This document shows, piece by piece, positions 3,708-37,926 of a stretch of DNA of 40,455 nucleotides. A program made the translations under genes and the position numbers. The stretch spans positions 1 through 40,455 of the forward strand of contig JAJRDU010000315.1 of NCBI GenBank assembly GCA_028748685.1. The letters are read 5' to 3'. Under the pieces are notes generated by a model. That model worked only from the letters and a program-made list of their open reading frames with translations, did no database searches and was not told the DNA's origin. Numbering within the stretch: position 1 is the stretch's first letter; every line of letters begins with the position of its first letter. This DNA is from Methylococcaceae bacterium. GTDB taxonomy: Bacteria > Pseudomonadota > Gammaproteobacteria > Methylococcales > Methylomonadaceae.

Positions 3708-6700
3708 TTACGCATCCAGTTGAATCAGAAGTTGCTCGAGGGTTAGTGCGGCATCGACAAACTGGTAATTGGCGATTTGTTTTTTGATGGGCAATAGCCC
3801 CGCCGTCAGTTTGTCGTCACCGATTGCGGCCAGAATCCGGTCGAGTTGCTGATCGGCATCCGAATCGAATGCTTCTAGCTTGTCGAGTAGTTGCGACAAT
3901 TGTTGCCGGATTTCGACGTCGGGTAAGCTTGCTTGGCGAGCGATAAGTGGCTCGTCGATTGTAAGGGTGTTATTGATGCTGGTGATCACTTTTGACATTT
4001 CCTGCGCCGCCGTGGTGATACAGGCGTCTATGCAAGGAATGTTGGCGATATTGGGACGATAGATGTCCAGCGCTTCTTCTAGCCGCAGCAAATGCCCCTG
4101 CAACTGTTGGGCGCCGAGAGAGCCGGTTAGACCTTTCAGGGTGTGAACCAGATGATAAACTTTATAAAAATCATTGGCGATGAAGGCGCTACTGATTTCG
4201 TCCATGCTAAGCGCGTGATTCGCGGCGAATTTTTGCAAAATCTTGCGGTAAACGGCGTGGTTGCCGGCGGTATATTGCAGACCGATACCGCTATCGATGC
4301 CATACAGATACGGGATAATCTCGGTCTCGCCATCGTGGGCGATGTCGGGGTTTCGAGGCTGGATCCATTTTAAGAGTGTGGTATACAGCGTTTCCGGCAA
4401 TATTGGTTTGCTAATGAAGTCGTCCATGCCGGCTTGCAGGCATTTGTTACGATCATCGCTCATCGCGTTGGCGGTCATCGCAATCACTGGCAGATTTTTA
4501 CAAGACTCCATGGCTCTTAATTGGCGAGTGGTTTGATAACCATCCATAACCGGCATTTGAATATCCATCAGCACACAGTCATATTGGTTTTGCCGGAGTT
4601 TTTCCAGCGCAATATTGCCGTTTTCGGCAATATCTACCTGTAGCTGGGCTTGTTCCAGTAATTCGATAGCGACGATACGGTTGACTTCATTGTCTTCGAC
4701 CAGCAGGATGCGTGCGTCGCGAATATACTGAAGTTTACTGGTATCGATCCCTGTTCGCCGACGATGTTCACCAGCGTGACGAACTGTCGCCGGATCGGTA
4801 ATACCCAGTGTGACGGTGAATATGAATGTAGATCCTTCGTTTTCGCGGCTGTTAACGCGGATGTCGCCGCCCATTTGTTCGACCAACTGTTTGCAAATTA
4901 TCAAGCCTAGGCCGGTACCGCCGTATTTTCGGGTGACGCTGCTGTCGCCCTGACTGAAGGCCTGAAAAAGTCGGGTCTGGTTTTCCTCACCTATGCCAAT
5001 ACCGGTATCGGTAATGCTAAATTGTAGACGAGTCTGATCGGTGGTGCGGCTAAGTTCTTTTAGGTTGATCCTGATTTCTCCACGTTCCGTAAATTTTATG
5101 GCATTGCCTATCAGGTTTATCAGTATCTGCCGCAAACGCTGAGGATCGCCAACCACGGCATGATGAGCGTTGTAGGCGGCGGGGCGGATCAGCTGTATGT
5201 TTTTCCGGGCACTGAGCTCGGACATGGTTGAATAGACATGATCCAGGACTTCCTCCAAAAGAAAGGGCACCGCTTCCAGGCGCATTTTTCCCGCTTCCAT
5301 TTTAGAAAAATCCAGAATGTCGTCGACGATGGTCATCAAGGAATGGGAGGCCGTCTCCACCCGCTCAAGGTAGTCGCGCTGTTTGGAGCTGATATTGCCG
5401 TTAAGGCACAGCTCCACCAGCCCGATAATCGCATTCATCGGGGTTCGGATTTCATGGCTCATGTTAGCGAGAAATTCGGATTTTATACGATTGGCTTGTT
5501 CGGCCTGTTGTTTGGCTTCCAACAAGCGTTGTTCAATTTTTAGGCGTTCGGTGATGTCTTGCAGAGTCCCCTGAATACCGGTGACCTTCTGATGGAGATC
5601 GCGAATGATTTTGCCGCGCTGATGAACATGGCGCACTTCGCCGCTATTCAGCACAATCCGATGCCTAAAGTCGACGATACCGCTTGCACTCGCTTCATGT
5701 ATCGCCGTTTTGAACAAGCGCCGGTCGTCGGGATGAACGAGTTGCGACAGAAAATTGGCAAAATTGGGTATGAAGCGAGTTCGGCTGGTGCCGGTGATGC
5801 GGTACATCTCATCCGACCAACTGAACTGGTTGTCGGATAGATACCAATGCCAGTCGCCGATTTGTGAAATGTTTTGCGCGTCCAGTAGTCGTTGCTTCTG
5901 ATCCTGTAGTGCGTCGATCGCCCGGCTTCTTTCCAGTTCGGCGGTTATTTGCAGGGCGAACAGTTTCAAAATATCTTCGGCGAATAGCAGGTCGGGGACG
6001 GGGCGGCAATATAAGGCCAGCACAAAACCGAAGGTTTGTTGTTGAATATCTTGCAAGGGAATGCCGATATAGCCCTCTATCCCATGCTCCTGGAGCCATG
6101 TGTCGTCCGGAAAATGTTTGAGCACGTTTCTTCGATAAGAACAGGTTTTTCCGGTGGCGATATTGGCGCAAGGCGTGTTGCGTAAGTCGAATTCAACGTT
6201 GTCGATGATTTTACCCTGCGCGCAAAAGGACAGCGAGCGAGCCTGGGTCGGTTCATAAATTTCACCTATGATGATGTAATTGGCGCTCAGCGCTTCGGCG
6301 GCCAATTGGGTCAGATTATCTAGCGGCGAAACGCTGCTCTTTTCCCGTCTGGTGGAGACGATGCTCCTGATCACGCTGTTTTGTTGTAGTTGCCGGGTAA
6401 TGTCGGTTACCAAGCCTTGGTATTCGAGCACATCGCCTCCCTCGCTACGGCTCACCATTTTTCGGTCTTGTAGCCACTTGATGGCGCCGTCTTGGGAAAC
6501 GATGCGGTAAGGTTGATGTAAAATTTCTTGGCAATTGCCATCAAGGGCGCAACGGCCGATTTCCTGAACGAAGGTTTCGAGATCTTCCGGATGGATTAGG
6601 TTCAGATAACAAATTTTGTCGGTGAGCAGTTCTCGAACACTGTAACCGAGCAGGCTCTTGACGTTTTCAGTGGCAAACATTATCGGTAAGCCTTCCGAAT

Positions 6701-7697
6701 TTCGCCATTCCAGGGCGACAGAGGCGCTTTGGTTGATTATCTGAAATGTGGTTTGCAAACTGCTTTCCGACTGCTTGCGGGCCGTGATGTTCTGATGCGT
6801 GCCACATAATCGGCTCGGTTGCCGGGTGGCTGGATCGTATGCCACTACCGCGCCGGATCCTTGAATCCATATCCAGTGCCCCTGTTTGTGCTTCATGCGG
6901 AATTCCGCCACATAGGGTTGGCCGGAGGCGATATGCTCGGCAATCAATTGTTGCACTCTATCTTGATCGTCAGGGTGGATGCGCGTATTCCAGTCGCTGA
7001 TATAACAATCTAGTTCATCCTGGTCGAGGCCAAGCATTTCTAGCCAGCGTTGATTGACGATGTGTTTGCCGGTCAGATAATCCCAGTCCCAAAATCCCAG
7101 GCCGGCGCCCTCTATCACCAAGGCAAGCTGTTCTTCCGCCTGTTTGTAATCAGAAATATCGAGATGGAGTTGAATTAGCGGCGCCGCAGCGTGGTTGCCG
7201 AGCTTGTTGAGCGAAATTCGCTGCCATTGCTGGTGGCCGAATGCAAAATCGGCAGCGGCTAGTTCCTTGCCTGTTTTGATGTGTTGGCAGAGCATGCATT
7301 CGGTTTCACTATTAGTCGGAGGATGAAACCAATCGTGTACGGGCGCACCGATAATCTCGGTGGGGGTTTTGTGGATGGTAAGAGCGGCGGCCCGATTGAC
7401 GGTTTTGATGATGCCGAGGCTGTCGACCAATATCGCTGGCTGCGGAATGTAGTCGTAGCAGTCCGCAGCGGTCGATAGTTGTAATAAAAAAAACTGCCGT
7501 CGCTGGTAAAAATATCCAATGAGAACGGCACAAACCAATAACGGAATGGTGCTGTTTAACCAGTCGGAGAAAGCGGGAGATTGCTCTGATATTCGCAAGT
7601 AAAGGGTGGTCGCAAAGCCAAAAAGCATCAGTAAAAATGCAGCGATCAGCCCTCGATGGGCTTTTTGATCGGCGATTTTTACGGATTTTAGTGTCAT
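3708..7697 (-). CDS. Hybrid sensor histidine kinase, multi-PAS/GAF with receiver and HPt
   Basis: This is a very large inner-membrane kinase of about 1329 residues. Two hydrophobic helices near the N-terminus are separated by only about 12 residues, so there is almost no periplasmic sensor. Four PAS/PAC modules follow, with a GAF domain (around residues 455-595) between the third and fourth. Next come HisKA with [13 protein letters not shown] near residue 750, a HATPase with N-box [10 protein letters not shown] and G-boxes DTGIGIG and GGTGLGL, a receiver with [11 protein letters not shown] near 1045, and an HPt with HTLKG near 1185. The layout resembles BarA/ArcB-like phosphorelay kinases that sense cytoplasmic or redox signals. 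An in-frame TTG at 7718 would add seven residues; the ATG at 7697 is preferred although neither has a clear ribosome site. It is co-transcribed with the GGDEF regulator. Confidence 0.93.
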
Positions 7698-7795
7698 GCT
7701 GAGTGTCGGTGATTCCAAATGCGCGGTTTAACAAAACTAAATCTTAAACTGGGTGGCGGCAGTTATGAAAGACAATTCCTATATTTGAGATGTTG

Positions 7796-8782
7796 TTAAC
7801 AAACCCGAAGCTTGTATTCGGCGCCAGGCCGTTCCTTAACCAGTCGGGGAACCAGGTAGCCGGGTAGGCTGCATTGCATCTGCTCCATAATTTGTTTGGC
7901 GCGGTTTTCATCAATCGCAAAGTGGCCCGTGCCGCTGGCGTGATCGAGTAAATGCAGATAATAAGGCAGGATGCCGAATGCAAACAACTGTTCGCTAAGC
8001 CGGCAAAGGGTTTCGTCGTCATCATTGATGTCCCTTAGCAATACGCTTTGATTGAGAAGAGTGACGCCGCGTTGCCTTAATTGGCTACAGGCCGCGCCGA
8101 CTTCAGTGCTTAATTCGTTGGCATGATTGGCATGGATCACCAGCACGATTTGTTTGCCGGTTTGGAGCAGATTGTCCATTAACGGTAACGTAATGCGCGA
8201 CGGCAATACCACCGGTACGCGACTGTGAATACGGATGCGCTTCAAATGGCCGATGCCGCCTAGTTTCTTCAGCAAGTGCCCAAGTTTATCGTCATTCAGC
8301 AGCAAGGGATCGCCGCCGCTAAGTATCACTTCGCTGAGCTCCTGGTGAGAATCGATGTAGTCCATGGCCTGTTGTAGCTTCTGGCTGGACAGTTGCAACT
8401 CGCCGTAAGGGAAGTTTCTACGGAAGCAATAACGGCAATGTACCGCGCAGGCTCCGGTCACGATCAGTAACACCCGGCCCCGATATTTATGAATGAGGCC
8501 GGCGGCGGCTACCGCATTCAGATCGCCGACCGGATCGTGACTGTAACCGGGATAGTCGCGGAGTTCATCCCGTAGCGGTAGCACTTGTCTTAATAGCGGA
8601 TCGTTCGGGTTGCCGGGTTCCATGCAGTCTACAAATCCGCGCGGCACGCGAAGCGGAAACGATTTGATCTCACTTGGTAGCGGTAGCGAATCAGGGGCAA
8701 TTTGTAGATGTCGGCATAGCGTTTCGACGTCGGTAAATGCCTCGCTGAGTGCCTGTTGCCAAGGGGCGGTTTTGTAGTCCAA
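7796..8782 (-). CDS. epmB: EF-P (R)-beta-lysine-forming lysine 2,3-aminomutase EpmB
   Basis: This is a 328-residue radical SAM enzyme. The CxxxCxxC cluster motif is Cys112, Cys116 and Cys119 in [30 protein letters not shown] and [15 protein letters not shown] match the lysine 2,3-aminomutase/YjeK family. It converts (S)-alpha-lysine to (R)-beta-lysine, which EpmA attaches to elongation factor P. The length agrees with E. coli EpmB (about 340 residues). The start is TTG at 8782, preceded by a GGAG five bases upstream. The first later ATG would remove the conserved [19 protein letters not shown] region. It is transcribed divergently from efp, with promoters sharing a gap of about 75 bp. Confidence 0.94.
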
Positions 8783-8794
8783 TGTTGCTCCGGT

Positions 8795-8823
8795 TTCCGA
8801 TTAAAAATCTTATCCATTATAAT
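8795..8823 (+). promoter_or_regulatory. Candidate sigma-70 promoter for efp-epmA
   Basis: A perfect TATAAT lies at 8818-8823, 33 bp before the efp ATG. The hexamer 17 bp upstream (TTCCGA, 8795-8800) is a poor -35 match, so activity would rest mainly on the -10. The gap between the divergent epmB and efp genes is short, which limits where the promoter can be. Confidence 0.5.
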
Positions 8824-8856
8824 CGTCAGACTTATTGTTTGTTTCACGAGGAAAAA

Positions 8857-9426
8857 ATGGCGATTTATAGCACCAACGAATTTAAGGGCGGTTTGAAGAT
8901 CATGTTGGACAACGACCCTTGTTCGATTATCGAGAACGAGTTTGTCAAACCTGGCAAGGGCCAGGCGTTCAACCGCGTCAAGATCCGCAATCTGAAAACC
9001 GGCCGCGTGATCGAACGGACTTTTAAGTCCGGCGATACCGTGGAAGGTGCGGATGTCGTCGATAGGGATATGCAATATCTGTATAACGACGGCGAATTCT
9101 GGCACTTCATGGTGCCCGATACCTTCGAGCAATATCAGGCCGACAAAAATGCCGTCGGCGAAGCACTGAAATGGTTAAAAGAGCAGGACATGTGCATCCT
9201 GACCCTGTGGAACGACTCTCCGTTGTCCGTAACCCCTCCCAACTTCGTTGAACTGGCGATTACCGAAACCGATCCGGGCCTGAAAGGCGATACCTCGGGC
9301 GGCGGCGGCAAACCCGCGACTCTGGAAACCGGTGCCGTGGTGCGGGTGCCGTTGTTTGTACAGATTGGCGAAGTCATTAAAGTCGATACCCGTACCGGCG
9401 AATACGTCTCACGCGTTAAAGAATAG
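8857..9426 (+). CDS. efp: Elongation factor P
   Basis: EF-P of 189 residues rescues ribosomes stalled on polyproline stretches. The modification loop reads [15 protein letters not shown], with the target lysine at residue 34 exactly as in E. coli. The C-terminal S1-like/OB region ends [12 protein letters not shown], typical of the family. The ATG at 8857 is preceded by ACGAGGAAAAA, a good ribosome site. The reading frame stays open upstream but no family residues are encoded there. The stop codon overlaps the epmA start by one base (TAGTG), giving tight translational coupling. The neighbouring epmB and epmA supply and attach beta-lysine to Lys34, so this is a beta-lysylated EF-P rather than the rhamnosylated or unmodified type. 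Confidence 0.98.
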
Positions 9427-10406
9427 TGGCAAACCGCTGGCAACCGGCCTGCGATATTCCGCATTTGCGCCTGCGGGCGCGGATGCTGGCCGACATCCGG
9501 CGGTTTTTCGCCGATCGAGATGTGCTGGAAGTGGAAACTCCGCTGTTGTGCCGGGCCACCGGCACCGATCCTCAGCTGGATTTCTTTTCCACCACCTTTC
9601 ATTCAATTCCCAAAAATCCAACCTTGTTTCTGCAGACTTCGCCGGAGTTCGCGATGAAACGCTTGTTGGCTGCCGGCAGCGGTAGCATCTATCAGATCTG
9701 CAAGGCGTTCAGGAACGGCGAAAGCGGCCGTTCGCATAATCCGGAATTCACGATCCTGGAGTGGTATCGGGTCGGTTTTAGCCTGAAGCAATTGATGGAC
9801 GAGGTGTCCGAATTATTGCAAGGCTTGCTGGCGCCTGCATTCGAGGATTTGAATGTCAGGCAGGTCAGCTATCAGCATATTTTTCAAGAAATCACCGGCC
9901 TGGAACCCTTGGTATTTGACGAGCAGGCGTATCGGCGATACGTGCAGATCGCCGGATTTCCCGAGGCTGTTGATTTGTGTGGCGACGAACATGGCTTATG
10001 GCTGGATTTTATCTTTAGTCATTGCGTGCAGCCGGCGATGGCAGCGGGCACACTCTATCTGGTTCATGATTATCCCGCCATTCAGTCCTCGCTGGCGCGC
10101 ATTCATCCGGGCGACGCCAGGGTTGCCGAACGCTTCGAGGTATTTGTCAACGGCATGGAATTGGGAAACGGCTTCTTTGAACTGAGCGATGCGGTCGAGC
10201 AAGAAACCAGGTTCGATAGGGAAATCGCTCATCGTCAGGCACACGCGTTGGCCAGTGTCGAAAAAGATCACTTGTTGCTGGAAGCCCTGCGAGCCGGTCT
10301 GCCGGATTGCAGCGGCATAGCCTTGGGTCTGGACAGGCTTTTGATGATAGCGGGCAATTGCCGGAGCATCGACGAGGTGCTGGCGTTTCCATTGAGCAAT
10401 GCCTGA
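9426..10406 (+). CDS. epmA: EF-P beta-lysyltransferase EpmA (GenX/PoxA)
   Basis: This 326-residue class II lysyl-tRNA synthetase paralogue lacks the anticodon-binding domain, as expected for EpmA. Class II motifs are present: motif 1 region DRDVLEVETPLL, motif 2 AFRNGESGRSHNPEFTILEW, and motif 3 GIALGLDRLLM. NGMELGNGFFEL is the usual lysine-pocket segment. It activates (R)-beta-lysine with ATP and transfers it to Lys34 of EF-P. The GTG start at 9426 shares its first base with the efp stop. A weak GC hairpin plus T-run follows at 10438-10456. Confidence 0.96.
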   Translation: MANRWQPACDIPHLRLRARMLADIRRFFADRDVLEVETPLLCRATGTDPQLDFFSTTFHSIPKNPTLFLQTSPEFAMKRLLAAGSGSIYQICKAFRNGESGRSHNPEFTILEWYRVGFSLKQLMDEVSELLQGLLAPAFEDLNVRQVSYQHIFQEITGLEPLVFDEQAYRRYVQIAGFPEAVDLCGDEHGLWLDFIFSHCVQPAMAAGTLYLVHDYPAIQSSLARIHPGDARVAERFEVFVNGMELGNGFFELSDAVEQETRFDREIAHRQAHALASVEKDHLLLEALRAGLPDCSGIALGLDRLLMIAGNCRSIDEVLAFPLSNA

Positions 10407-10437
10407 ACACCTCAAGGCCACAGGCGCGAAAGTTTAC

Positions 10438-10456
10438 GCCGGCTGACCGGTTTTTT
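10438..10456 (+). terminator. Candidate rho-independent terminator after epmA
   Basis: A short stem pairs GCCGG and CCGGT around a CTGA loop and is followed at once by six T residues. The stem is only five pairs, so it is likely a weak or partial terminator. It lies between epmA and the downstream cytochrome-like gene. Confidence 0.45.
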
Positions 10457-10500
10457 ATCGCTATCGAAAATCTTCCTGTTTTCAATCTCTTCACCCCGTT

Positions 10501-11235
10501 ATGACAAAACGTTACACCCGTTTCAGCGATATTTCAGTTAGCGAAAGAATCTTGAATACCGTCTTCCTGTTGACGATAGGCCTGGGCTACATCATGGCCC
10601 TGGTCAACATGTATTACGCCCACCAGGGCCGTGACGGCAAGCCGGGGCTATCGATCGACGACATCGTGATCCTGTACCACGGTTCCAATGATCAAACCCG
10701 GCTGGGCTCGGCGATCAACGGCATCATGCTGCCCAACCTCAAATACAAGAGCGACAAGGAAGTGATCCTGAAATGGATACAGGATGGCGCCGAACAGCAG
10801 GCTTACAAGGATGAAATCGCGCCGATTCTGGAGCGTGACTGCGTTCATTGCCATTCGCCCGCCGTCAATCCTTCCTTGCCGGATTTGACAGGCTATGGTG
10901 GCGTGTCCGAAGTGGCGCGCTCGGGTGGGGCGTCCTTGCCGGTTCTGGTCAGGGTGTCGCATATACATTTGTTTGGCATCGCCTTCATCCTGTTCTTCAT
11001 CGGCAAGATCTTCCTGCTTTGCGACATCAATATCTACGTCAAACGGGTGGCGGTGATCATTCCTTTCGCGGCGATGCTGTTGGATGTGATGTCATGGTTT
11101 ATCACCAAATCGCTGTCGGGATTTGCTTATGTCGTGGTTCTCAGCGGCGCGTTGATGGGGCTATCCATGGGCGTGCAGATTTTGTTAAGCATTTATCAGA
11201 TGTGGTTTTATGCCAAGGAACCGGCCAAGACATGA
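10501..11235 (+). CDS. Membrane-anchored cytochrome c-like protein of unknown function
   Basis: This 244-residue protein has one N-terminal hydrophobic helix (about residues 17-37), a hydrophilic segment of about 110 residues, and three C-terminal helices (about 151-172, 178-198 and 207-230). The hydrophilic part carries a single covalent heme motif, Cys114-Val-His-Cys117-His118, in the context DCVHCHSP, resembling small c-type cytochromes of the planctomycete-cytochrome kind. If the heme is attached by the Ccm system, this domain must face the periplasm, with the N-terminus inside. Two histidines at the start of helix 2 (VSHIHLFG) could be additional metal or heme ligands. I do not recognise a named family. 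It follows epmA by 94 bp on the same strand, but a role in EF-P modification is not implied by its features. Confidence 0.75.
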   Translation: MTKRYTRFSDISVSERILNTVFLLTIGLGYIMALVNMYYAHQGRDGKPGLSIDDIVILYHGSNDQTRLGSAINGIMLPNLKYKSDKEVILKWIQDGAEQQAYKDEIAPILERDCVHCHSPAVNPSLPDLTGYGGVSEVARSGGASLPVLVRVSHIHLFGIAFILFFIGKIFLLCDINIYVKRVAVIIPFAAMLLDVMSWFITKSLSGFAYVVVLSGALMGLSMGVQILLSIYQMWFYAKEPAKT

Positions 11236-11321
11236 CCTTCCAATGGTATGCAGCGAATAAGGGGGATGGGCTGGCTTGGGATGTAAGCATGCCGTATGAC
11301 TCGTGGCAGAAAGAGAGCTGA
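11232..11321 (+). CDS. Possible 29-residue peptide overlapping the cytochrome-like gene stop
   Basis: An ATG overlaps the stop of the preceding gene (ATGA) and opens a 29-codon frame, rich in Trp, Asp and Lys, that ends in TGA at 11319-11321. The overlap would allow re-initiation. There is no recognised motif and the frame is short enough to occur by chance. Confidence 0.2.
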   Translation: MTFQWYAANKGDGLAWDVSMPYDSWQKES

Positions 11322-11583
11322 TCAACGCATTTTGCCCGCATAGGGGATTTTTTCTTTACAATACGCGCCTCTGAAATCTTGAACTCAGCGGATTCCCACC
11401 TTGTTAGTCAGAAAGTTGCAGTACCCAGCATGATTAATATGTCGGCTGTCAATATGTTGGCTGTCATCAACGCTTTTGTGCATAGCCCGATGGATAACGG
11501 ATTGACCGGCTATCTCCCGATGCGGCTGTTATCCGAGGGAGCGTCCGCGCCCCGAATGCACCGGAAAAATCGGGTTTGACGTA
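11322..11583. other. Intergenic leader before the ligase-dehydratase gene, with 15-bp tandem duplication
   Basis: No confident gene is seen here. A TACAAT at 11357-11362 is a possible -10 element, but no good -35 accompanies it. At 11437-11466 a 15-bp unit, ATATGTCGGCTGTCA, is repeated in tandem with one mismatch. A frame from ATG 11430 to the TGA at 11577-11579 would encode 49 residues with the repeated pentapeptide NMSAV/NMLAV. It ends 4 bp before the next gene start, so it may be a leader peptide or simply chance. Confidence 0.35.
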
Positions 11584-13272
11584 TTGATCGCGCTATCCGA
11601 CTTATTGGCGGCCGATGAAAGGCAGCAGCCTATCGCGTATCATCAGGGGAGTTATGTCCGTTTCGAGGAATTCAAGGCCTCGGTTGTTGGCTGGATGCAA
11701 CGATTCGCGGAGGAGCCGTGTCGAGCCTATGCACTGTATACCGACGATGCCTATCCGTTTGCTACTCTGTTATTTGCGCTTCTTTATGCGGGCAAGGAAG
11801 TCTGGATAGCGGGTAACAATCGACCCGGCACGGCCACGCTCTTGCTGCAAGCAGGTTGCCGATTAATCGGCGACTGGCATTCGACCGAGACGCTGGATGC
11901 CTCCGGCCGGCCGGTAGGCGATGCGGGCCCAATTTTGTTGCCCTTAAATCCGGACCGGGCCCGGTTAGTGATTTTTACCTCCGGCTCCACTGGTGAAGCC
12001 AAGCCGGTGATAAAGCGCCTCAGCCAGCTACAGGCCGAGGTCGACACATTGGAACGGCAGTGGGGCACGCTGTTGTCGCGCGCCGAGGCGTTGGCTACCG
12101 TCAGCCATCAACATATCTATGGCTTATTGTTTCGGGTGTTGTGGCCGCTGTCGGCTGGACGTTGTTTCCATAGCCGCATGGCGATCAGTCCGGAAGTGTT
12201 ACTTCAGCAATCAAAAAATGCCTATTGGGTCGCTAGCCCGGCGCACTTGAAACGCCTGGATCAAAATTCGCCCTGGGGAGGGCTGGCGCGGCTGGCCGCA
12301 ATTTTCAGCTCCGGCGGGCCTTTGCCGCATTCCGCCGCGCAACGGATTTTAGCCAATGGCAATCGGGCGGCGATTGAAGTTTACGGCAGTACCGAAACCG
12401 GTGGCATCGCCTGGCGGCAACAGCCTGATCCGGCCTGGACCTTGTTTGAGGGTATGACCTTAAGCCCGGACGACTCTGGCACGATGTTGCATTCGCCTTA
12501 TTTGCCGAACGATGAGGGGTTAAGACTGGATGACCGCATCCGGCTGGAGGCCGATGGCCGTTTCTTACTGCTGGGCCGCGAGGACCGTATCGTCAAGATC
12601 GAGGAAAAGCGTTTGTCCTTGACCGAGTTGGAGCAGCGGCTAAGCGATACGCCATGGATAGAGGAGGCGGTGGTACTGGTGATCGAAAAGGGGCGGGATT
12701 TAGTGGCCGCTGCGGCGGTGTTAAGCGCCGAAGGTCGGGAATATCAGAAAACAAATGGACGAAAGGCCTTGATCAGGCAATTGCGGGAGGCTTTGCATCA
12801 ATGGTTCGACGCCGTGGTGTTGCCCCGGAAATGGCTGTTTCTGACGCATTTGCCCGTTACGCTGCAAGGCAAGGTTGAAACCCGACTCTTGGAACAACTG
12901 CTGGCTGCGGACAGCGATAAATTTCCGCATCTGCAAACCTGCAGACTTGAAGCCGATTGCGCCGAATTGCTGATCAAGGTGCCGGAGGATTTGCTTTATT
13001 TTCGAGATCATTTTAAAGGTCACCCGATATTGCCTGGCGTGGTACAAATCAGTTGGGTGGAGCATTTCGGGAAAATGCTGTTTCCTATAGCCACGGCTTT
13101 TTCGCAATTGGAGGCGGTCAAATTTATAAAAGTTATCCAGCCCGGCCGCGAGCTGAAACTGAAATTGCGCTGGAAAGCCACTAGCGGCAAATTGTGTTTT
13201 AACTTCAGTTCGGAACAACAAGCTTATAGTTCGGGGCGGCTGGTTTATGCCGGAAAGCACCGCGAAAGCTAG
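11584..13272 (+). CDS. Fused AMP-dependent acyl/aryl ligase and ApeI-like hotdog dehydratase
   Basis: This 562-residue protein has two domains. Residues 1 to about 440 are an adenylating ligase: P-loop FTSGSTGEAKP at 131-141, adenine-site EVYGSTETGG, LLGREDRIVKIEEKRLS, and the late catalytic lysine in LQGKVETR. Residues about 455-562 are a 3-hydroxyacyl-ACP dehydratase hotdog fold, with FRDHFKGHPILPGVVQ matching FabZ/ApeI. The same pair, separate or fused, occurs in aryl polyene, flexirubin and xanthomonadin clusters. There the ligase loads an aryl acid onto a carrier protein and the dehydratase acts in each chain-extension cycle. The start is taken as TTG 11584; the frame is open further upstream but has no ATG or GTG, and no strong ribosome site is visible. 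It is followed by an ammonia-lyase that could provide the aryl acid. Confidence 0.85.
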   Translation: MIALSDLLAADERQQPIAYHQGSYVRFEEFKASVVGWMQRFAEEPCRAYALYTDDAYPFATLLFALLYAGKEVWIAGNNRPGTATLLLQAGCRLIGDWHSTETLDASGRPVGDAGPILLPLNPDRARLVIFTSGSTGEAKPVIKRLSQLQAEVDTLERQWGTLLSRAEALATVSHQHIYGLLFRVLWPLSAGRCFHSRMAISPEVLLQQSKNAYWVASPAHLKRLDQNSPWGGLARLAAIFSSGGPLPHSAAQRILANGNRAAIEVYGSTETGGIAWRQQPDPAWTLFEGMTLSPDDSGTMLHSPYLPNDEGLRLDDRIRLEADGRFLLLGREDRIVKIEEKRLSLTELEQRLSDTPWIEEAVVLVIEKGRDLVAAAAVLSAEGREYQKTNGRKALIRQLREALHQWFDAVVLPRKWLFLTHLPVTLQGKVETRLLEQLLAADSDKFPHLQTCRLEADCAELLIKVPEDLLYFRDHFKGHPILPGVVQISWVEHFGKMLFPIATAFSQLEAVKFIKVIQPGRELKLKLRWKATSGKLCFNFSSEQQAYSSGRLVYAGKHRES

Positions 13273-13417
13273 CGTCGTTCCGATTGAAATATACGAGCAT
13301 GTCGACGCGAACAGGCTAGCCGCGCGGCGGAGCAGGGTTATGCTATGTGTTTGCAGAACTATTACCTGCAAGCGCCCTTACAATGGTTTAATTTTTTACG
13401 ATTTTTGGCGGATTTAA
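13247..13417 (+). CDS. Possible 56-residue ORF bridging ligase and lyase genes
   Basis: An ATG inside the 3' end of the ligase-dehydratase gene opens a frame that ends at 13417, 8 bp before an internal ATG of the lyase gene (13426). The N-terminal part (SVVPIEIYEHVDA) faintly recalls the first strand of family 2 glycosyltransferases, which occupy this position in many aryl polyene clusters. The rest does not. It could be a scar of a deleted gene or noise. Confidence 0.2.
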   Translation: MPESTAKASVVPIEIYEHVDANRLAARRSRVMLCVCRTITCKRPYNGLIFYDFWRI

Positions 13418-14955
13418 ACGCGGTAATGAATCAGGAGAAAGTGCTGTTCGATGGCACGGTGTTAAGCATCGAAGACATAGCCAGGCTGGCTCGGCGGCAG
13501 GCGGGAGTGGAATTGAGCCGACGAGAGGAATTCATCGTCCGCATCGACAAGGGGGCGGCTTTTATCGATACTCTGCTCAAGGAAGAAGGCTGTGTGTACG
13601 GTGTCACCACCGGTTATGGCGATTCCTGCACCGTCGCGGTGCCTGCCGATCTGGTCGATCAACTGCCCATTCACCTCTATACCTTTCACGGTTGTGGACT
13701 GGGCGCTTATTTCGATGCCGAGCAGACCAGGGCCATCCTGGCGGCGAGGTTGGCCAGTCTGGCTCGCGGTTTTTCCGGTGTACGCTACCGTTTGCTGGAA
13801 CAAATCGCCACTTTGTTACAATACGACATCCTGCCCTTGATCCCCCAGGAAGGCTCGGTTGGCGCTAGCGGCGACCTTACGCCCTTGTCTTATCTGGCTG
13901 CGGTGCTGGCCGGCGAGCGGGACGTGGTTTATCAAACGCAGCGACAACCGGCGGTCGACGTCTTCAAGGTATTGCACATAGCACCGCTACGCTTCAAACC
14001 CAAGGAAGTCTTGGCCATCATGAACGGCACGGCGGCGATGACCGGTATCGCCTGTCTAGCCTGGCAGCGCGCCGAATATCTGTCGCGGCTGACGACCCGA
14101 ATCACCAGTTTGGCGGTGTTGGCGCTGCAGGGCAATGCTTACCATTTCGACGATAAACTGTTTTCGGTAAAGCCGCATCCGGGGCAAACCAAAGTCGCCG
14201 CGCGAATTCGGGAAGATCTGGAATTGCACGGCGAAGCGCCGCGCAACGACAGCCGCTTGCAGGATCGCTATTCGCTACGCTGCGCGCCGCATGTGATAGG
14301 CGCACTGGAAGATGCCTTGCCTTGGCTGAGGCAATTGATCGAAACCGAGCTGAACAGCGCCACCGATAATCCTATCATCGACGCCGAAGGCGAGCATGTA
14401 CTGCACGGTGGCCATTTTTATGGCGGCCATATCGCCATGGCTATGGATACGCTAAAAACCGCCGTCGCCAATCTAGCCGATTTGCTGGATAGGCAAATGG
14501 CGCAATTGCTGGACGTCAAATTCAACCATGGTCTGCCGGCCAATCTATCCGGTGCGCCAGGCGCGCAAGCCATGCTCAACCATGGTTTCAAGGCCGTACA
14601 AATCGCCGTTTCGGCCTGGACGGCGGAAGCCTTGAAACTGACCATGCCGGCCAGTGTGTTCTCCCGATCCACCGAATGCCATAATCAGGACAAGGTCAGC
14701 ATGGGCACCATCGCGGCTCGGGATTGCATTCGCATCATAGAATTGACCGAACAAGTGGCTGCCGCAGCCTTGATTTCGACCGTGCAAGGCGTTGAACTGC
14801 GCGGCTCGGCCCTGCAATTGGGCGGCGACATGAAAACCACCTTTGAGCAATTGCGGGAACTGGTACCAACATTGACCACCGATCGCGCCCTGGAGGGCGA
14901 GTTGCGCTTATGCGTCGAGCTGATACGCCGGCAACATTGGCGCTTGTACGAATAA
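13345..14955 (+). CDS. MIO-type aromatic amino acid ammonia-lyase (HAL/TAL/PAL family)
   Basis: The 536-residue enzyme contains the cofactor-forming tripeptide Ala174-Ser175-Gly176 in GSVGASGDLTPLSYLAAVL. The active-site loop is YGVTTGYGDS near residues 85-94. The family also shows the NGTAAMTG and TDNPII segments. It should eliminate ammonia from His, Tyr or Phe. The loop that sets substrate choice reads LYTFHGCGLG, with Phe114-His115 where hut-type histidine lyases usually have Ser-His. No hut genes are nearby, while an aryl polyene-type ligase-dehydratase lies just upstream, so formation of an aryl-acrylic acid such as coumarate is more likely than histidine breakdown. The start at 13345 has AGGG seven bases upstream. 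An alternative ATG at 13426 would give 509 residues, closer to the family's usual length. Confidence 0.88.
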   Translation: MCLQNYYLQAPLQWFNFLRFLADLNAVMNQEKVLFDGTVLSIEDIARLARRQAGVELSRREEFIVRIDKGAAFIDTLLKEEGCVYGVTTGYGDSCTVAVPADLVDQLPIHLYTFHGCGLGAYFDAEQTRAILAARLASLARGFSGVRYRLLEQIATLLQYDILPLIPQEGSVGASGDLTPLSYLAAVLAGERDVVYQTQRQPAVDVFKVLHIAPLRFKPKEVLAIMNGTAAMTGIACLAWQRAEYLSRLTTRITSLAVLALQGNAYHFDDKLFSVKPHPGQTKVAARIREDLELHGEAPRNDSRLQDRYSLRCAPHVIGALEDALPWLRQLIETELNSATDNPIIDAEGEHVLHGGHFYGGHIAMAMDTLKTAVANLADLLDRQMAQLLDVKFNHGLPANLSGAPGAQAMLNHGFKAVQIAVSAWTAEALKLTMPASVFSRSTECHNQDKVSMGTIAARDCIRIIELTEQVAAAALISTVQGVELRGSALQLGGDMKTTFEQLRELVPTLTTDRALEGELRLCVELIRRQHWRLYE

Positions 14956-15006
14956 TTGCGGGAGCTTCTTGCCCTTTATTCCACTCGTCGGTGCGGGTAC
15001 CGACTT

Positions 15007-15118
15007 TAAGGAAGCGCTGATTAAGTCCTTCGACAGGCAGTACGAATGTTAAGTGGTTGATTCCGTTCGTGGTTCGGTAAGCTCGTCACGAACGGAATCA
15101 ACGTGTTTAAATTAACCG
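15007..15118. repeat. Dispersed palindromic (MITE-like) repeat, copy A
   Basis: The segment begins TAAGGAAGCGCTGATTAAGT and contains TCCTTCGACAGGC. It then shows a perfect 16-bp inverted repeat, GTTGATTCCGTTCGTG (15056-15071) with its complement at 15087-15102, around a 15-nt loop. A related copy in inverted orientation lies at 21668-21814. It also sits at the end of the ammonia-lyase gene, between convergent genes, and may act as a terminator. Confidence 0.75.
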
Positions 15119-15143
15119 TCGCGATAGCGACAGCTTAATGGGG

Positions 15144-16151
<1,008 letters not shown>

Positions 16152-16154
16152 CGT

Positions 16155-17426
16155 TTACAGTCTCGCATCGGTTTGATAGGCGGGGAACAGGTATTTGAGG
16201 TCGTAAATAATCGCCTGTTTCTTACCCAAAGCTCTGATTTCCGCTATCGGCATTTGCCTGAATTGCTCATGAGCGACGGCCAGGATTATGGCATCGTATT
16301 GGCCTTGATTCGTTTTTTCAACGGGACGGATGCCGTATTCTTCGAAGGTTTCATCGCCATTCACCCAGGGATCGTAGACATCGACGTTGACACCGTAGGT
16401 TTTCAATTCCGCAACAATATCGACTACTCGGGTGTTACGAATGTCGGGGCAGTTTTCCTTGAAGGTCAGGCCCATGATCAACACCTTGGCATCCTGAACC
16501 TGGATGCGTTTTTTCAGCATCAGCTTGATCAATTGCGATACCACGTAGGCACCCATGCCGTCGTTGATGCGGCGGCCGGACAAGATCACTTCCGGGTTGT
16601 AGCCTATGGCTTGGGCCTTGTGTGTCAGGTAGTAAGGATCGACGCCTATGCAGTGGCCGCCGACCAGGCCGGGGCGGAAGGGCAGAAAGTTCCATTTGGT
16701 GCCGGCCGCCAGCAAGACTTCTTCGGTATCGATGCCGAGTTTGTTGAAGATCAGCGCCAGCTCGTTGATCAGGGCGATGTTGACGTCGCGCTGGGTGTTC
16801 TCGATCACCTTGGCCGCTTCCGCCACCCTGATGCTGCTGGCCTTGTGGGTTCCGGCGGTGATGATGCTTTTATAGAGTTGATCGACTCTTTCGGCGATTT
16901 CAGGCGTTGAACCGGAGGTGACCTTAAGGATATTGGTGACCCGATGTTGTTTGTCGCCGGGATTGATACGCTCGGGGCTATATCCGACGAAGAAATTCTT
17001 GTTGAAGCTCAGGCCCGAGACTTTTTCCAGGATAGGCACGCAGACTTCTTCGGTCGCGCCGGGGTAGACGGTGGATTCGTAGATCACGATGTCGCCGGCC
17101 TTGATGACCTTGCCCAGGGTTTCGCTGGCTTTTTCCAGCGGGGTTAGATCGGGTTGTTTGTGTTCGTTGATCGGCGTCGGCACCGTGACAACATAGACGT
17201 TACAAGCGGCGATATCATGCAGATTGGCGCTGTAGGTCAGGTGGCTGGCTTGGGCCAGTTCTTCCGGGCTGACTTCCAGGGTGTGATCATTGCCCGCCCG
17301 CAATTCGTCGATGCGGTGTGGGTTGATGTCAAAGCCCACCGTTGGATATTTGCGGCCAAACTCCACGGCCAGCGGCAAACCGACATAACCTAGTCCAATC
17401 ATGCCGATTTTGATCTGGTCTAACAT
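16155..17426 (-). CDS. UDP-N-acetylglucosamine-type nucleotide-sugar 6-dehydrogenase (TviB/WbpA-like)
   Basis: The protein has 423 residues. The NAD site is [18 protein letters not shown]. Middle-domain signatures are [10 protein letters not shown] and [23 protein letters not shown]. The catalytic cysteine lies in [16 protein letters not shown]. The C-terminal UDP-binding domain includes [15 protein letters not shown]. It oxidises a UDP-hexose(amine) to the uronic acid with two NAD. The TviB/WbpA branch acts on UDP-GlcNAc, so this is the likely substrate, but UDP-glucose is not excluded. The start was set at 17426, where AGAGGAG sits about ten bases upstream; an ATG at 17471 would add 15 unconserved residues. 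It is paired with the downstream epimerase. Confidence 0.9.
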
Positions 17427-17484
17427 GTTTTGTAACTCCTCTACCTGGCACTCTCTTGTCAACGAATGCATGAAAACATTTAAC

Positions 17485-18102
17485 TTATTTTTTAACGATA
17501 ACGCCCCACGCCGCCAGCCAAACTTGCGCCTCGTAACTCTCCGCGGATTTCGGCAATTCGCCGCTTAGTATCAAGCCCAAGGTGTGCTGGATAATGCCGA
17601 AGAAATAAGCATATGCCAACACGGGATCCAAGGATCTTATTTCCCCTTCCTTAACGCCGTTTTGCAGGATGCGCTTGATTTTATTAAACGGTGCCGTTTC
17701 CAATAAGGGCGGCTGTTCCGGCAGAAACTCGCCCACGTTGATAAATAATAAAAAGCGGACGATTTCCGGAGCTTCATCCGTCAGTTTGAACAACAAGTCG
17801 ACAATTTCCCTTAATTGTTCGGAAGACTTGCGGTTTCTACGGCGAATATCGTCTATCGATATGCTCAGGCTGTCGAGGATATTTTCCCTCAACGCCAGGG
17901 CGATGGCCTGTTTAGTCTTGAAATGTTGATAAATACCGTTAGCGGTTTTTAGCCCGACCGCATCCTTGATGTCGGGCAATGAGGTATTGAAATAGCCTTT
18001 CTGGGCGAATAGCTTTAAAGCGGCTTGTAAAATTTCATCCTGGCTAACAGTTTTGTTCGGACTGTTTTCGGTTTCAGTTTCTAATTGTAATTCTTGTTCC
18101 AT
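17485..18102 (-). CDS. TetR/AcrR-family transcriptional regulator
   Basis: This is a 205-residue regulator. A glutamate-rich extension of about 20 residues precedes the DNA-binding domain, which reads [19 protein letters not shown], then a helix-turn-helix ending in [17 protein letters not shown]. The helical C-terminal ligand domain has no specific signature. It lies between pgsA and the nucleotide-sugar genes, all on the minus strand, with a 58-bp gap before the dehydrogenase ATG, so it could belong to the same transcript and regulate the sugar genes or itself. A small palindrome overlaps its own upstream region. Confidence 0.88.
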
Positions 18103-18112
18103 GCTCTTATAT

Positions 18113-18129
18113 ACAGCGTTACCTGCTGT
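18113..18129. promoter_or_regulatory. Possible TetR operator palindrome
   Basis: ACAGC and GCTGT arms flank a 7-bp centre, 10 bp upstream of the TetR-family start codon. Such a site would fit autoregulation, but the arms are only five bases long and no second copy was seen. Confidence 0.25.
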
Positions 18130-18172
18130 TTTCTCTTAAGGTATGTCGCAGTATTCAACGCTGCGGTTATTG

Positions 18173-18733
18173 TTATTCTCTAAGGGTCGAAAGGGCGGCA
18201 ACGAGGTAATTGACCATCGACCATAGCGTTAATATAGCCGACAAGTATAACAGCCAGTAACCTATGCTGTTGATCGGCAGCCCGAATAAATCGTCGCGAT
18301 ACAATAGGAGACTGACGGCCGCCATTTGCGCGGTGGTCTTCCATTTTCCCAGTTGCGAAACCTTGACCTTGGCGCGCTGACCGATTTCGGCCATCCATTC
18401 TCTTAGCGAGGCAATCGTGATTTCCCGGCCTATGATCACCGCAGCAGGGATTGCAAGCCACGGGCTGGCTTCGTCTTGAACCACCAGAACCAGCACGAAG
18501 GCGACCATCAATTTATCGGCGACGGGGTCGAGAAAGGCGCCGAAGGGGGTTTCCAGGCTCATCTTTCTGGCCAGATAACCATCCAACCAGTCGGTAAAGC
18601 CGGCAAACATAAAAATCAAGGTGCAAGCCAGTTTGGAATATTCCCACGGCAAATAAAACACGATTGCCAGCAATGGGATCAATGCTATTCGCAATAATGT
18701 CAGATAGGTGGGTAGGGTAAATTTAACTGCCAT
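18173..18733 (-). CDS. pgsA: CDP-diacylglycerol-glycerol-3-phosphate 3-phosphatidyltransferase
   Basis: This is an integral membrane enzyme of 186 residues with four to five hydrophobic helices. The CDP-alcohol phosphotransferase motif DGYLAR, followed by GAFLDPVADK, supplies the conserved D-x2-DG-x2-AR-x8-G-x3-D-x3-D pattern. It makes phosphatidylglycerol phosphate, the precursor of phosphatidylglycerol and cardiolipin. Its start overlaps the end of uvrC by 11 bp. The uvrC-pgsA adjacency is conserved in gammaproteobacteria. Unlike E. coli, no tRNA genes follow. Confidence 0.95.
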   Translation of the reverse strand: MAVKFTLPTYLTLLRIALIPLLAIVFYLPWEYSKLACTLIFMFAGFTDWLDGYLARKMSLETPFGAFLDPVADKLMVAFVLVLVVQDEASPWLAIPAAVIIGREITIASLREWMAEIGQRAKVKVSQLGKWKTTAQMAAVSLLLYRDDLFGLPINSIGYWLLYLSAILTLWSMVNYLVAALSTLRE

Positions 18734-20564
18734 CTTGATGGTGAAATATATCGTATATTCGTTGTGCTAATTGCCGGCTAATGCCCTCGATTCCTGCCAG
18801 CGCATCTACTCCCGCGCTGGATACGCCCTGCAGGCCGCCAAACTGTTTCAACAACATCTGCCGCCGTTTCGGTCCTAGGCCGACGATGTCTTCCAGCACC
18901 GATTGCTTCTTGGCCTTGCCACGACGCTGCCGGTGTCCCGTGATCGCAAATCGATGCGCTTCGTCGCGAATATGCTGTATCAGCAACAAGGCGCTGGCGC
19001 CCGGCGTTACATCCAAAGGCTGCTCGCGATCGGGCAGAATTATTTTCTCCATGCCCGCCTTGCGGTCCGGGCCTTTCGAAACGCCGACTATCATAACATT
19101 GTTTATCTCCAATTCCGCCAGCGCCTTTTGGGCTTCGCCGACCTGACCCTTGCCGCCGTCGATCAGCAAAATGTCCGGGGCAGGGTGTTCGCCCTGTTTG
19201 ATGCGCTTGAAACGGCGCAATACCGCCTGATGGATGGCGGCGTAATCATCGCCGCCGGTGACGCCTTCGATATTGAAACGCCGGTAGTCGGATTTGACCG
19301 GCCCTTCACGATCGAATACTACGCAGGAGGCTACGGTTTGTTCGCCCTGGGTATGACTGATGTCGAAACATTCCAGGCGCTTAGGCGTGTCGCTGCAGCC
19401 CAGCTCTTGTTGCAGGCTGACGAAGCGCGCATGCAGGCCCTGCTTGTCGGCCAACTTGGCGGCAAGCGCATTGTCGGCATTGGTCAGCGCCATTTGCAGC
19501 CACTTCTGGCGTTCGCCGCGAACATTAGGGGAAATGGCAACCGCGTGTTTGGCCTGGCCGCTCAATACTTCGATCAAGAGTTCGCTTTCCGGTAAGGGAT
19601 GGCTGACGATCAGTTCGTGCGGGACCGCCTTGTCCAGATAATATTGGCTGATGAAGGCCTGCAAGACCAGCGCCGGATCGTTGTCGTCACCCATCTTAGG
19701 GAAAAACTGCCGGTTGCCGAGATTCTGGCCGCCCCGGATGAAGAATACCTGCACGCAGGCCGCATCGCCCTTGGCGGCGCAGGCGATGATGTCGACATCG
19801 CCTTTTTCGCCCTCGACGCAATGTTTTTCCAATACCGCGCGAAGACGCTGGATTTGGTCGCGGTGGGCGGCGGCTTCCTCGAATTCGAGCTTGGCTGAGG
19901 CTGCTTCCATCTTCGCCACCAGGCTGTCGATCAACAGCCCGCCCTGGCCCTCAAGAAACAGGATGGTATTGTCGACGTCGTTTTTATATTGTTCCTTGCT
20001 GATCAAGCCTACGCAGGGGGCGGTGCAGCGTTCGATCTGGTATTGCAAACAGGGCCGGGAGCGGGCGTTGTAATAGGAATCCTCGCATTGGCGGACCGGA
20101 AAGATTTTTTGCAGCAGCTTCAGTGTTTCCTTGACGGCGACGGCGCTGGGGTAGGGGCCGAAGTATTTGCCCTTGCGCTTCTTGGCGCCTCGGTGATAGG
20201 CCAGTTGCGGGAAATCGTGAAAACTGGAAATGAACACATAGGGGTAAGACTTGTCGTCCCTCAGGCTGATGTTGTAGCGCGGCTTGTGGCGCTTGATCAG
20301 CTGGCTTTCCAATAATAAGGCTTCGCCTTCGGTATGGGTAACGGTGACTTCTATCGAAGCCACTTTCGCGACCATCGCCGTCTGCTTGGGCGGAGCCGAT
20401 TGCTTGCGGAAATAACTGGAGACGCGGTTCTTGAGGTTCTTAGCCTTGCCTATATAAATGATCTCGCCCTTGGCGTCGATCATTCTATAGATGCCTGGAC
20501 GCTTGGTGAGCGTCTTTAGAAAGGCTTTGATATCAAAGCCATGGTTTACAACTTCTTCGTTCAC
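18723..20564 (-). CDS. uvrC: Excinuclease ABC subunit C
   Basis: UvrC makes both incisions during nucleotide excision repair together with UvrB. The 613-residue protein has an N-terminal GIY-YIG nuclease domain (RPGIYRMIDAKGEIIYIGKA) and a cysteine-rich patch, CEDSYYNARSRPCLQYQ, then CTAPC. A UVR UvrB-binding segment (KLEFEEAAAHRDQIQRLR), an RNase H-like 5' nuclease domain beginning CFDISHTQGEQ, and C-terminal helix-hairpin-helices follow. The start is assigned to GTG 20564, two bases after the glycosylase stop, because it gives the family's usual length (E. coli 610) and coupled translation. The longer frame upstream lies inside the glycosylase gene and has no family similarity. Confidence 0.95.
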   Translation of the reverse strand: MNEEVVNHGFDIKAFLKTLTKRPGIYRMIDAKGEIIYIGKAKNLKNRVSSYFRKQSAPPKQTAMVAKVASIEVTVTHTEGEALLLESQLIKRHKPRYNISLRDDKSYPYVFISSFHDFPQLAYHRGAKKRKGKYFGPYPSAVAVKETLKLLQKIFPVRQCEDSYYNARSRPCLQYQIERCTAPCVGLISKEQYKNDVDNTILFLEGQGGLLIDSLVAKMEAASAKLEFEEAAAHRDQIQRLRAVLEKHCVEGEKGDVDIIACAAKGDAACVQVFFIRGGQNLGNRQFFPKMGDDNDPALVLQAFISQYYLDKAVPHELIVSHPLPESELLIEVLSGQAKHAVAISPNVRGERQKWLQMALTNADNALAAKLADKQGLHARFVSLQQELGCSDTPKRLECFDISHTQGEQTVASCVVFDREGPVKSDYRRFNIEGVTGGDDYAAIHQAVLRRFKRIKQGEHPAPDILLIDGGKGQVGEAQKALAELEINNVMIVGVSKGPDRKAGMEKIILPDREQPLDVTPGASALLLIQHIRDEAHRFAITGHRQRRGKAKKQSVLEDIVGLGPKRRQMLLKQFGGLQGVSSAGVDALAGIEGISRQLAQRIYDIFHHQDGS

Positions 20565-33093: not shown

Positions 33094-33206
33094 TTGAGGG
33101 TACACACGGGGAAGTTATTTTAGTGGAATCCTTAGCTATGCCAATCTCCCGGACGGAGAATATCGTCCCCGTCTTTTCGCGCAGTTCTAAAATGAGGTGT
33201 ATGCCC

Positions 33207-37838: not shown

Positions 37839-37926
37839 TTCCGTCAGCCTTCTCTTTCCCGGCGAAGGGGAAGGCCAGGCATGGGATTTGAACGTTCAAA
37901 GTACATTTTTTTCGAGGTAGTACAGC

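Follow-up and report, generated by a model that had tools for sequence, protein, structure and literature searches.

A probable aryl polyene ligase and ammonia-lyase without adjacent ketosynthases

Why do a ligase and an ammonia-lyase of the kinds that initiate aryl polyenes (APEs) stand side by side with no chain-extension genes next to them, and could they still prime a polyene made elsewhere in the genome? We addressed this question in a 40,455-nucleotide window, the entire contig C315 (JAJRDU010000315.1) of a Methylococcaceae bacterium metagenome bin (GCA_028748685.1; G000 in our family survey). The bin has 3,676,105 bases on 337 contigs, a completeness of 77.02% and a contamination of 4.1%. 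The locus consists of the following features:

11584..13272, + strand: predicted ApeH-ApeI fusion, an AMP-forming ligase for aryl-acyl carrier protein (ACP) with a C-terminal hotdog dehydratase (PF00501, PF22818 and motifs)
12979..13215, + strand: ApeI-like dehydratase domain of the fusion (PF22818, residues 466-544; PDB chains 3esi_A and 6qsr_A match here)
13423..14955, + strand: predicted 4-methylidene-imidazole-5-one (MIO) aromatic amino acid ammonia-lyase, likely acting on Tyr or Phe (PF00221, 534.5 bits)

We propose, with a probability of roughly 0.72, that the two genes survive as the priming module of a lyase-type APE cluster whose chain-extension genes are unlinked. At the level of sequence, this proposal is supported by the protein families, the gene order of relatives, a deletion scar, constraint on both genes and further APE genes in the same bin.

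The fusion is an open reading frame (ORF) of 562 amino acids with a TTG start. It matches the AMP-binding family PF00501 at residues 98-284 (62.8 bits) and the ApeI-like family PF22818 at residues 466-544 (47.9 bits). Its top NCBIfam match is 4-coumarate-CoA ligase TIGR02372, at 126.1 bits below the cut-off of 334.7. The motifs FTSGSTGEAK, YGSTETG, LPVTLQGK and HFKGHPILPGVVQ are all found in the fusion, and its dehydratase half holds an HF-G-P-LPGV-Q stretch. The lyase, annotated as a 536-residue ORF at 13345-14955 on the + strand, matches the aromatic lyase family PF00221 and carries the MIO ASG motif. Codons 1-26 of this ORF (13345-13422) are not lyase sequence and encode the C-terminal end of an acyltransferase. 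The lyase proper begins at 13423, and a second copy on contig C77 begins at the same methionine. The Pfam matches thus agree with an earlier note, which had described an adenylating ligase fused to an ApeI-like dehydratase upstream of a MIO ammonia-lyase, with the lyase start moved to 13423. The ligase and ApeI dehydratase that a lyase-type APE pathway requires therefore both appear to be present, the ligase being assigned by domain and gene order.

Relatives carry the pair within an APE gene order

We surveyed 151 genomes of the family, including this bin, and retained frameshifted and two-piece genes in the counts. The fusion is encoded by 67 genomes (those reaching 45% identity among 93 matched at 1e-20, G121 through a 5' piece only), the lyase by 66, and the matching type-2 ketosynthase also by 66 (at least 60% identity; 66 of 91). 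Fusion and lyase occur together in 65 genomes, 63 of which have all three genes. The Fisher p value for fusion-lyase co-occurrence is 3e-39, with kinship between genomes ignored. The fusion aligns at full length and in one piece in 55 genomes, with an in-frame stop in 4 of those 55 rows.

When 13 family loci holding the pair were fetched, both a glycosyltransferase and an acyltransferase gene lay between fusion and lyase in 9. According to the ORF caller, G071 has neither middle gene, G023 has only the glycosyltransferase, and G079 and G043 have only the acyltransferase. The core run of ApeG, fusion, glycosyltransferase, acyltransferase and lyase is found in G136, G053, G004, G014 and G102, among others. 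The annotation of fetched loci, with ORFs called by a custom greedy script, omitted L001-L007, L017 and L018-L047.

The distance between fusion and lyase, approximate because it is taken from alignment ends, is 1-2 kb in 41 of 56 genomes, more than 2 kb in 12 and less than 1 kb in 3. The short spacings are those of this bin (72 bases when counted to the annotated ORF start and 150 when counted to position 13423), G071 (234 bases) and G023 (788 bases). In the nine remaining genomes of the 65 with the pair (G003, G016, G031, G066, G107, G114, G116, G138 and G141), the main matches are on separate contigs or distant on one contig (G016, G107); the ligase contig of G116 additionally bears part of a lyase. 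The lyase lies apart from the ligase in G003, G031, G107 and G141.

A search of the named genomes for close relatives of the ligase found them in Methylobacter sp. STD1_208, Candidatus Methylobacter favarea and a Methylococcaceae bin (three loci, 57-60% identity). Among the matches listed outside the family, 7 of 15 are one-piece matches to replicons of Burkholderia, Cupriavidus and Caballeronia, and in the other 8, from Pseudoalteromonas, the fusion splits over two separate genes. Neither the fusion nor the pairing is thus peculiar to this genome. The fusion had been thought unusual, a view that these one-piece alignments and its publication in Acinetobacter baumannii (accessible text of PMC8041823) do not support. 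A search of a phage collection gave only five records, with partial ligase matches of 25-28%. Separately, genus g20 of this family (G122, G145, G139, G068 and G086) encodes a divergent ligase-dehydratase fusion of 29-30% identity in frames of 548-564 amino acids, perhaps a separate fusion lineage.

An acyltransferase scar and a possible ApeG scar

Two candidate traces of genes missing here lie beside the fusion:

13294..13410, + strand: decayed C-terminal remnant of an LpxL-type acyltransferase (profile of 19 acyltransferase C-termini, 40.8 bits)
11430..11576, + strand: possible decayed end of ApeG, a COG4648-type membrane protein (weak: 5.2 bits, 3 of 1000 shuffled segments higher)

The acyltransferase profile was built from the last 70 residues of 19 proteins, and the best of 12,000 shuffled frames reached 8.6 bits. 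Each of the four short gaps tested has an acyltransferase C-terminal end immediately ahead of the lyase: the window (40.8 bits), G071 (38.6 bits), C77 (14.0 bits) and G023 (11.2 bits). In the window the scar is in frame with the lyase, so the annotated lyase is overlong by 26 residues. The candidate ApeG trace is at the expected place and ends beside the ligase start, as ApeG usually precedes the ligase.

Judged from gene order and scar, the island is the remnant of a larger cluster from which the glycosyltransferase and acyltransferase genes were apparently deleted in place. Relatives display stages of this erosion, with the acyltransferase missing in G023 and both genes missing in G071 and the window. 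That the pair might form an independent small pathway, as had been suggested, is disfavoured by its place in the APE gene order of relatives and by the scar. Its isolation from chain-extension genes is unusual, as the same note held, but fits stepwise cluster erosion of the kind that relatives also display.

A second copy points to constraint on both genes

The pair recurs on contig C77 of the bin, where the contig end truncates the ligase. The two lyases share 93% protein identity and group together in the tree. The ratio of nonsynonymous to synonymous substitution rates (dN/dS) between C315 and C77 is 0.091 across 509 codons of the lyase (dS 0.358) and 0.139 across the final 235 codons of the fusion (dS 0.703). 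At the DNA level the lyases are 90.5% and the fusions 82.1% identical, compared with 62.6% for the intergenic gap (107 aligned bases); the flanks after the lyase are different DNA and align at 53.2%. The dN/dS values of 0.09-0.14 indicate that both genes were under constraint. If the deletion preceded the split of the two copies, as a scar in both suggests, then this constraint continued after the cluster broke up. The pair is apparently still in use and, on this comparison, seems to be kept by selection, perhaps because it now supplies a second pigment cluster on other contigs.

At L008 1-495 the C77 pair has a glycogen phosphorylase (GlgP) gene as its neighbour. We considered this gene as proof of a second strain, but the sole other GlgP found in the bin is 47% identical, which allows no decision.

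Further APE genes lie on other contigs

When the window's ORFs were compared with an APE protein set, no APE-type ketosynthase, carrier protein or ketoreductase was found, in agreement with the earlier reading of the window. The ketosynthase, chain-length factor, ApeP, ApeQ and ApeR that are not adjacent to the pair were found on contigs C79, C322 and C46. C79 encodes an oxidoreductase dependent on flavin adenine dinucleotide (FAD), a ketosynthase, an ApeP dehydratase and the start of FabG. C322 encodes the rest of FabG, an ApeR-type ketosynthase, a chain-length factor (PF13723), an acyltransferase, one ApeF-like carrier protein, an ApeG-like protein, a standalone ApeI, a glycosyltransferase (read by eye) and an LpxL-type acyltransferase. 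The ends of C79 and C322 share 121 identical bases, and the two are therefore very probably one cluster, which we call type 1. It is collinear with the type-1 cluster of G094, a genome of the same genus (L097). C46 carries the type-2 ketosynthase, which is 52% identical to the type-1 enzyme, together with ApeP and a methyltransferase.

The bin has ketosynthases of both types and an ApeF-like carrier. The earlier suggestion that the pair is a split starter module for an unlinked cluster is strengthened by the APE ketosynthases, chain-length factor, ketoreductase, carrier protein, ApeP and ApeI on other contigs, by the failure to find a urocanase in the bin, and by the window's ligase being the sole ApeH-like one found.

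We asked whether these contigs derive from one organism. Trees of lyase and fusion group the bin with its genus members G079 and G107 (support 100/99). Genus members give the best matches for UvrC of the window contig (89% identity to G094) and for OadA of C79 (90%). Beside the pair lies a block of epimerase, dehydrogenase, TetR, a 186-amino-acid gene and UvrC, the order of which is kept in all six genus genomes fetched; the pair is absent from those stretches. On the trees, the UvrC and OadA matches and the conserved block, we dropped the reading of the pair as a contaminant from another genus. For C46 we considered Fpg, whose identities of 70.1-74.9% compare with 65.3-79.3% among six other genus genomes. 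This weak test is compatible with the genus and not decisive, and we dropped it. The marker-gene matches covered 36 other genus genomes, 11 of which were also in the family survey.

How the pair may act, and what weighs against it

Under the proposed priming role, the lyase would remove ammonia from tyrosine to give p-coumaric acid (or from phenylalanine to give cinnamic acid), and the ligase half would adenylate this aryl acid and load it onto an ACP. Ketosynthases on other contigs would then extend the chain. Dehydration of the beta-hydroxy intermediates would fall to the ApeI half, which probably forms a heterodimer with the ApeP encoded on C46 or C79. The glycosyltransferase and acyltransferase genes once between fusion and lyase would have been lost by in-place deletion.

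Several observations weigh against this proposal. With the bin 77% complete and 4.1% contaminated, another strain could be the source of C46 and C77, and an ApeH could lie in the missing part. The bin has other adenylation domains, on C137 and C287, which match ApeH weakly. An APE-type MMPL exporter was not found in the bin, its only relative (24%) being on C137 beside a LolA-like gene read by eye. The scanned stretch has 3 promoter-like sites against 2.8 expected, with none upstream of the ligase. The unequal dS values, 0.36 for the lyase and 0.70 for the fusion, may mean that the two genes differ in history. The identity of the C315 and C77 gaps is little above that of the unrelated downstream flanks, so that the claim of one deletion event for both copies relies mainly on the 14-bit profile match. 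Finally, the substrate of the lyase is not readable from its sequence.

Two side observations concern C137 and C287. On C137 (L098, G000:C137:20001-40000), positions 10094-18955 encode what looks, mostly by eye, like another set of genes for a polyene or lipid, the third in the bin: an ApeE-like carrier, an ApeG-like protein, a LolA-like protein, an MMPL exporter, a lipoprotein, an FAD oxidoreductase and an adenylation domain, with no ketosynthase of its own in the stretch. On C287 (L014), positions 5116-14269 include a 1950-amino-acid protein with a ketosynthase match, which by eye suggests a carrier-ketosynthase-adenylation-thioesterase hybrid and adjoins an acyl ligase and a TauD-like dioxygenase.

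Does the pair prime the type-1 cluster?

A tentative extension of the priming-module proposal is that the pair primes the type-1 cluster of C79 and C322, which lost its own ApeH, so that a cinnamoyl or coumaroyl unit replaces the 4-hydroxybenzoate starter. Type-1 ketosynthases (49-52% identity) occur in six other genomes of the 151, and this bin alone has both types. In all six, the FAD oxidoreductase and ketosynthase genes have a standalone ApeH-like ligase as their opposite-strand neighbour (five in annotated stretches, G135 by coordinates), and none has the lyase or the fusion; the G094 genome has no lyase match at 1e-60. At this place C79 has a 206-base gap with no profile trace of ApeH and blastn matches of 13-20 bases only. 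A search of the bin (77% complete) with the ApeH of G120 returned only the window's fusion. Constraint on both genes of the pair also favours this extension.

Against it stand the incompleteness of the bin and the genes kept on C46, since a type-2 product may still be made with the ketosynthase, ApeP and methyltransferase there. The fit of the ligase to the C322 carrier protein is presumed. The ApeE of C322 is eroded, yet so it is in relatives that retain ApeH. We therefore rejected ApeE loss as special support for a starter swap. A ligase scar on the C322 ApeI was also rejected, as ApeI stands alone in other type-1 clusters.

On ApeE itself, hand-picked segments (L015 7300-7800; loci L068, L069, L079 and L097) showed it degraded or not found in the type-1 clusters of G061, G094, G117 and G038 and intact only in G120, among six looked at. 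The type-1 genomes other than this bin retain ApeH despite ApeE degradation. An ApeE-like ACP on C137 was read by eye.

A chimeric APE pathway may, less likely than not, have arisen by reciprocal gene loss. Here type 1 would have lost its 4-hydroxybenzoate ligase ApeH while an older type 2 shrank to the pair and the C46 genes, and the starter module would prime the type-1 machine and alter its head group. That one APE system took over the starter unit of another is the boldest reading, plausible but unproven in a bin of 77% completeness.

It is unlikely that the pair is a functionless, decaying leftover after another APE cluster took over. The missing neighbour genes, the acyltransferase scar and perhaps the ApeG scar flanking the pair, and the lack of a promoter-like site upstream of the ligase would fit such a relic. 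However, both ORFs are intact with their catalytic motifs, and the two diverged copies bear the mark of purifying selection.

By analogy, the substrate of the lyase is likely Tyr or Phe. Usual selectivity pairs in MIO lyases are His-Leu for Tyr, Phe-Leu for Phe and Ser-His for His. When aligned to tyrosine aminomutase, the window's lyase has Phe-His opposite that enzyme's Ser-His. Its TFHGCG stretch was matched in 17 of the 20 lyase rows listed (L011 and L048 being the same gene). Histidine degradation, with the lyase as HutH and the ligase unrelated, is very improbable and was dropped: curated histidine ammonia-lyase models are the lyase's top curated matches, but at 416.5 bits it falls below their cut-offs of 524 and 539.15, no urocanase was found in the 77% complete bin by a search that was positive in 5 of 14 control genomes, the lyase is present in 65 of 67 fusion genomes, and FlxA, also predicted as a histidine ammonia-lyase, uses tyrosine and not histidine (accessible part of PMC3992019).

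Comparison with known systems and other features of the window

The closest parallel in gene order is the APE cluster on plasmid pTHAF3_a of Pseudoalteromonas sp. THAF3. Its annotated order is chain-length factor, acyltransferase, two carrier proteins, hypothetical, AMP-binding, thioester dehydrase, glycosyltransferase, acyltransferase, ammonia-lyase, thioesterase, two hypotheticals, FAD oxidoreductase, DUF3261, ketosynthase, hotdog protein, FabG and ketosynthase. Ligase, dehydratase and lyase thus follow each other as in the window, and the lyases are 58.2% identical. In contrast to the window, ligase and dehydratase are separate genes there, a glycosyltransferase and an acyltransferase precede the lyase, and the chain-extension genes are adjacent.

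The ApeH of A. baumannii CRAB C1 also has ApeI at its C-terminus but, in the accessible text of PMC8041823, was assayed with 4-hydroxybenzoate and lies inside an APE cluster. Its fused ApeI forms a heterodimer with ApeP (same text; also the available part of PMC8358021). ApeH is reported to adenylate 4-hydroxybenzoate and load the carrier protein without a coenzyme A intermediate (excerpt of PMC8253772). In flexirubin biosynthesis, as in the pair, an ammonia-lyase and a 4-coumarate-CoA ligase (FlxA and FlxY) start a polyene, according to the excerpted PMC3992019. The window's lyase scores 331.8 with the FlxA equivalog model, below its cut-off of 700. C79 differs from the otherwise collinear G094 cluster in lacking the standalone ApeH-like ligase.

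Elsewhere in the window, positions 10501-11235 encode a 244-amino-acid protein that contains a haem-type CxxCH motif and matched neither Pfam nor NCBIfam models at 0.01. Two divergently oriented glutamate synthase large subunits lie at 25974-31454 (- strand) and 33123-39366 (+ strand), with 1826 and 1571 amino acids, the second being followed by a likely small-subunit gene.

Implications for aryl polyenes in methanotrophs

APE clusters are reported as dominant in Methylococcaceae (accessible part of PMC11964084) and as present in all Methylobacter analysed (excerpt of PMC12810054). Among the open-access papers listed for the terms searched, we found no report of APE cluster break-up or starter exchange in methanotrophs. 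The fusion has been described before, erosion explains the isolation, and the enzymes are ordinary; it is the state of the locus that is unusual, and the possible starter swap is the part worth testing. As initiating genes can be unlinked from the ketosynthases, programs that search for compact clusters may miss APE initiation genes in this family. The window and its relatives display break-up stages of a very widespread pigment cluster in methanotrophs, and provide a natural example of an APE machine whose starter unit may have been replaced.

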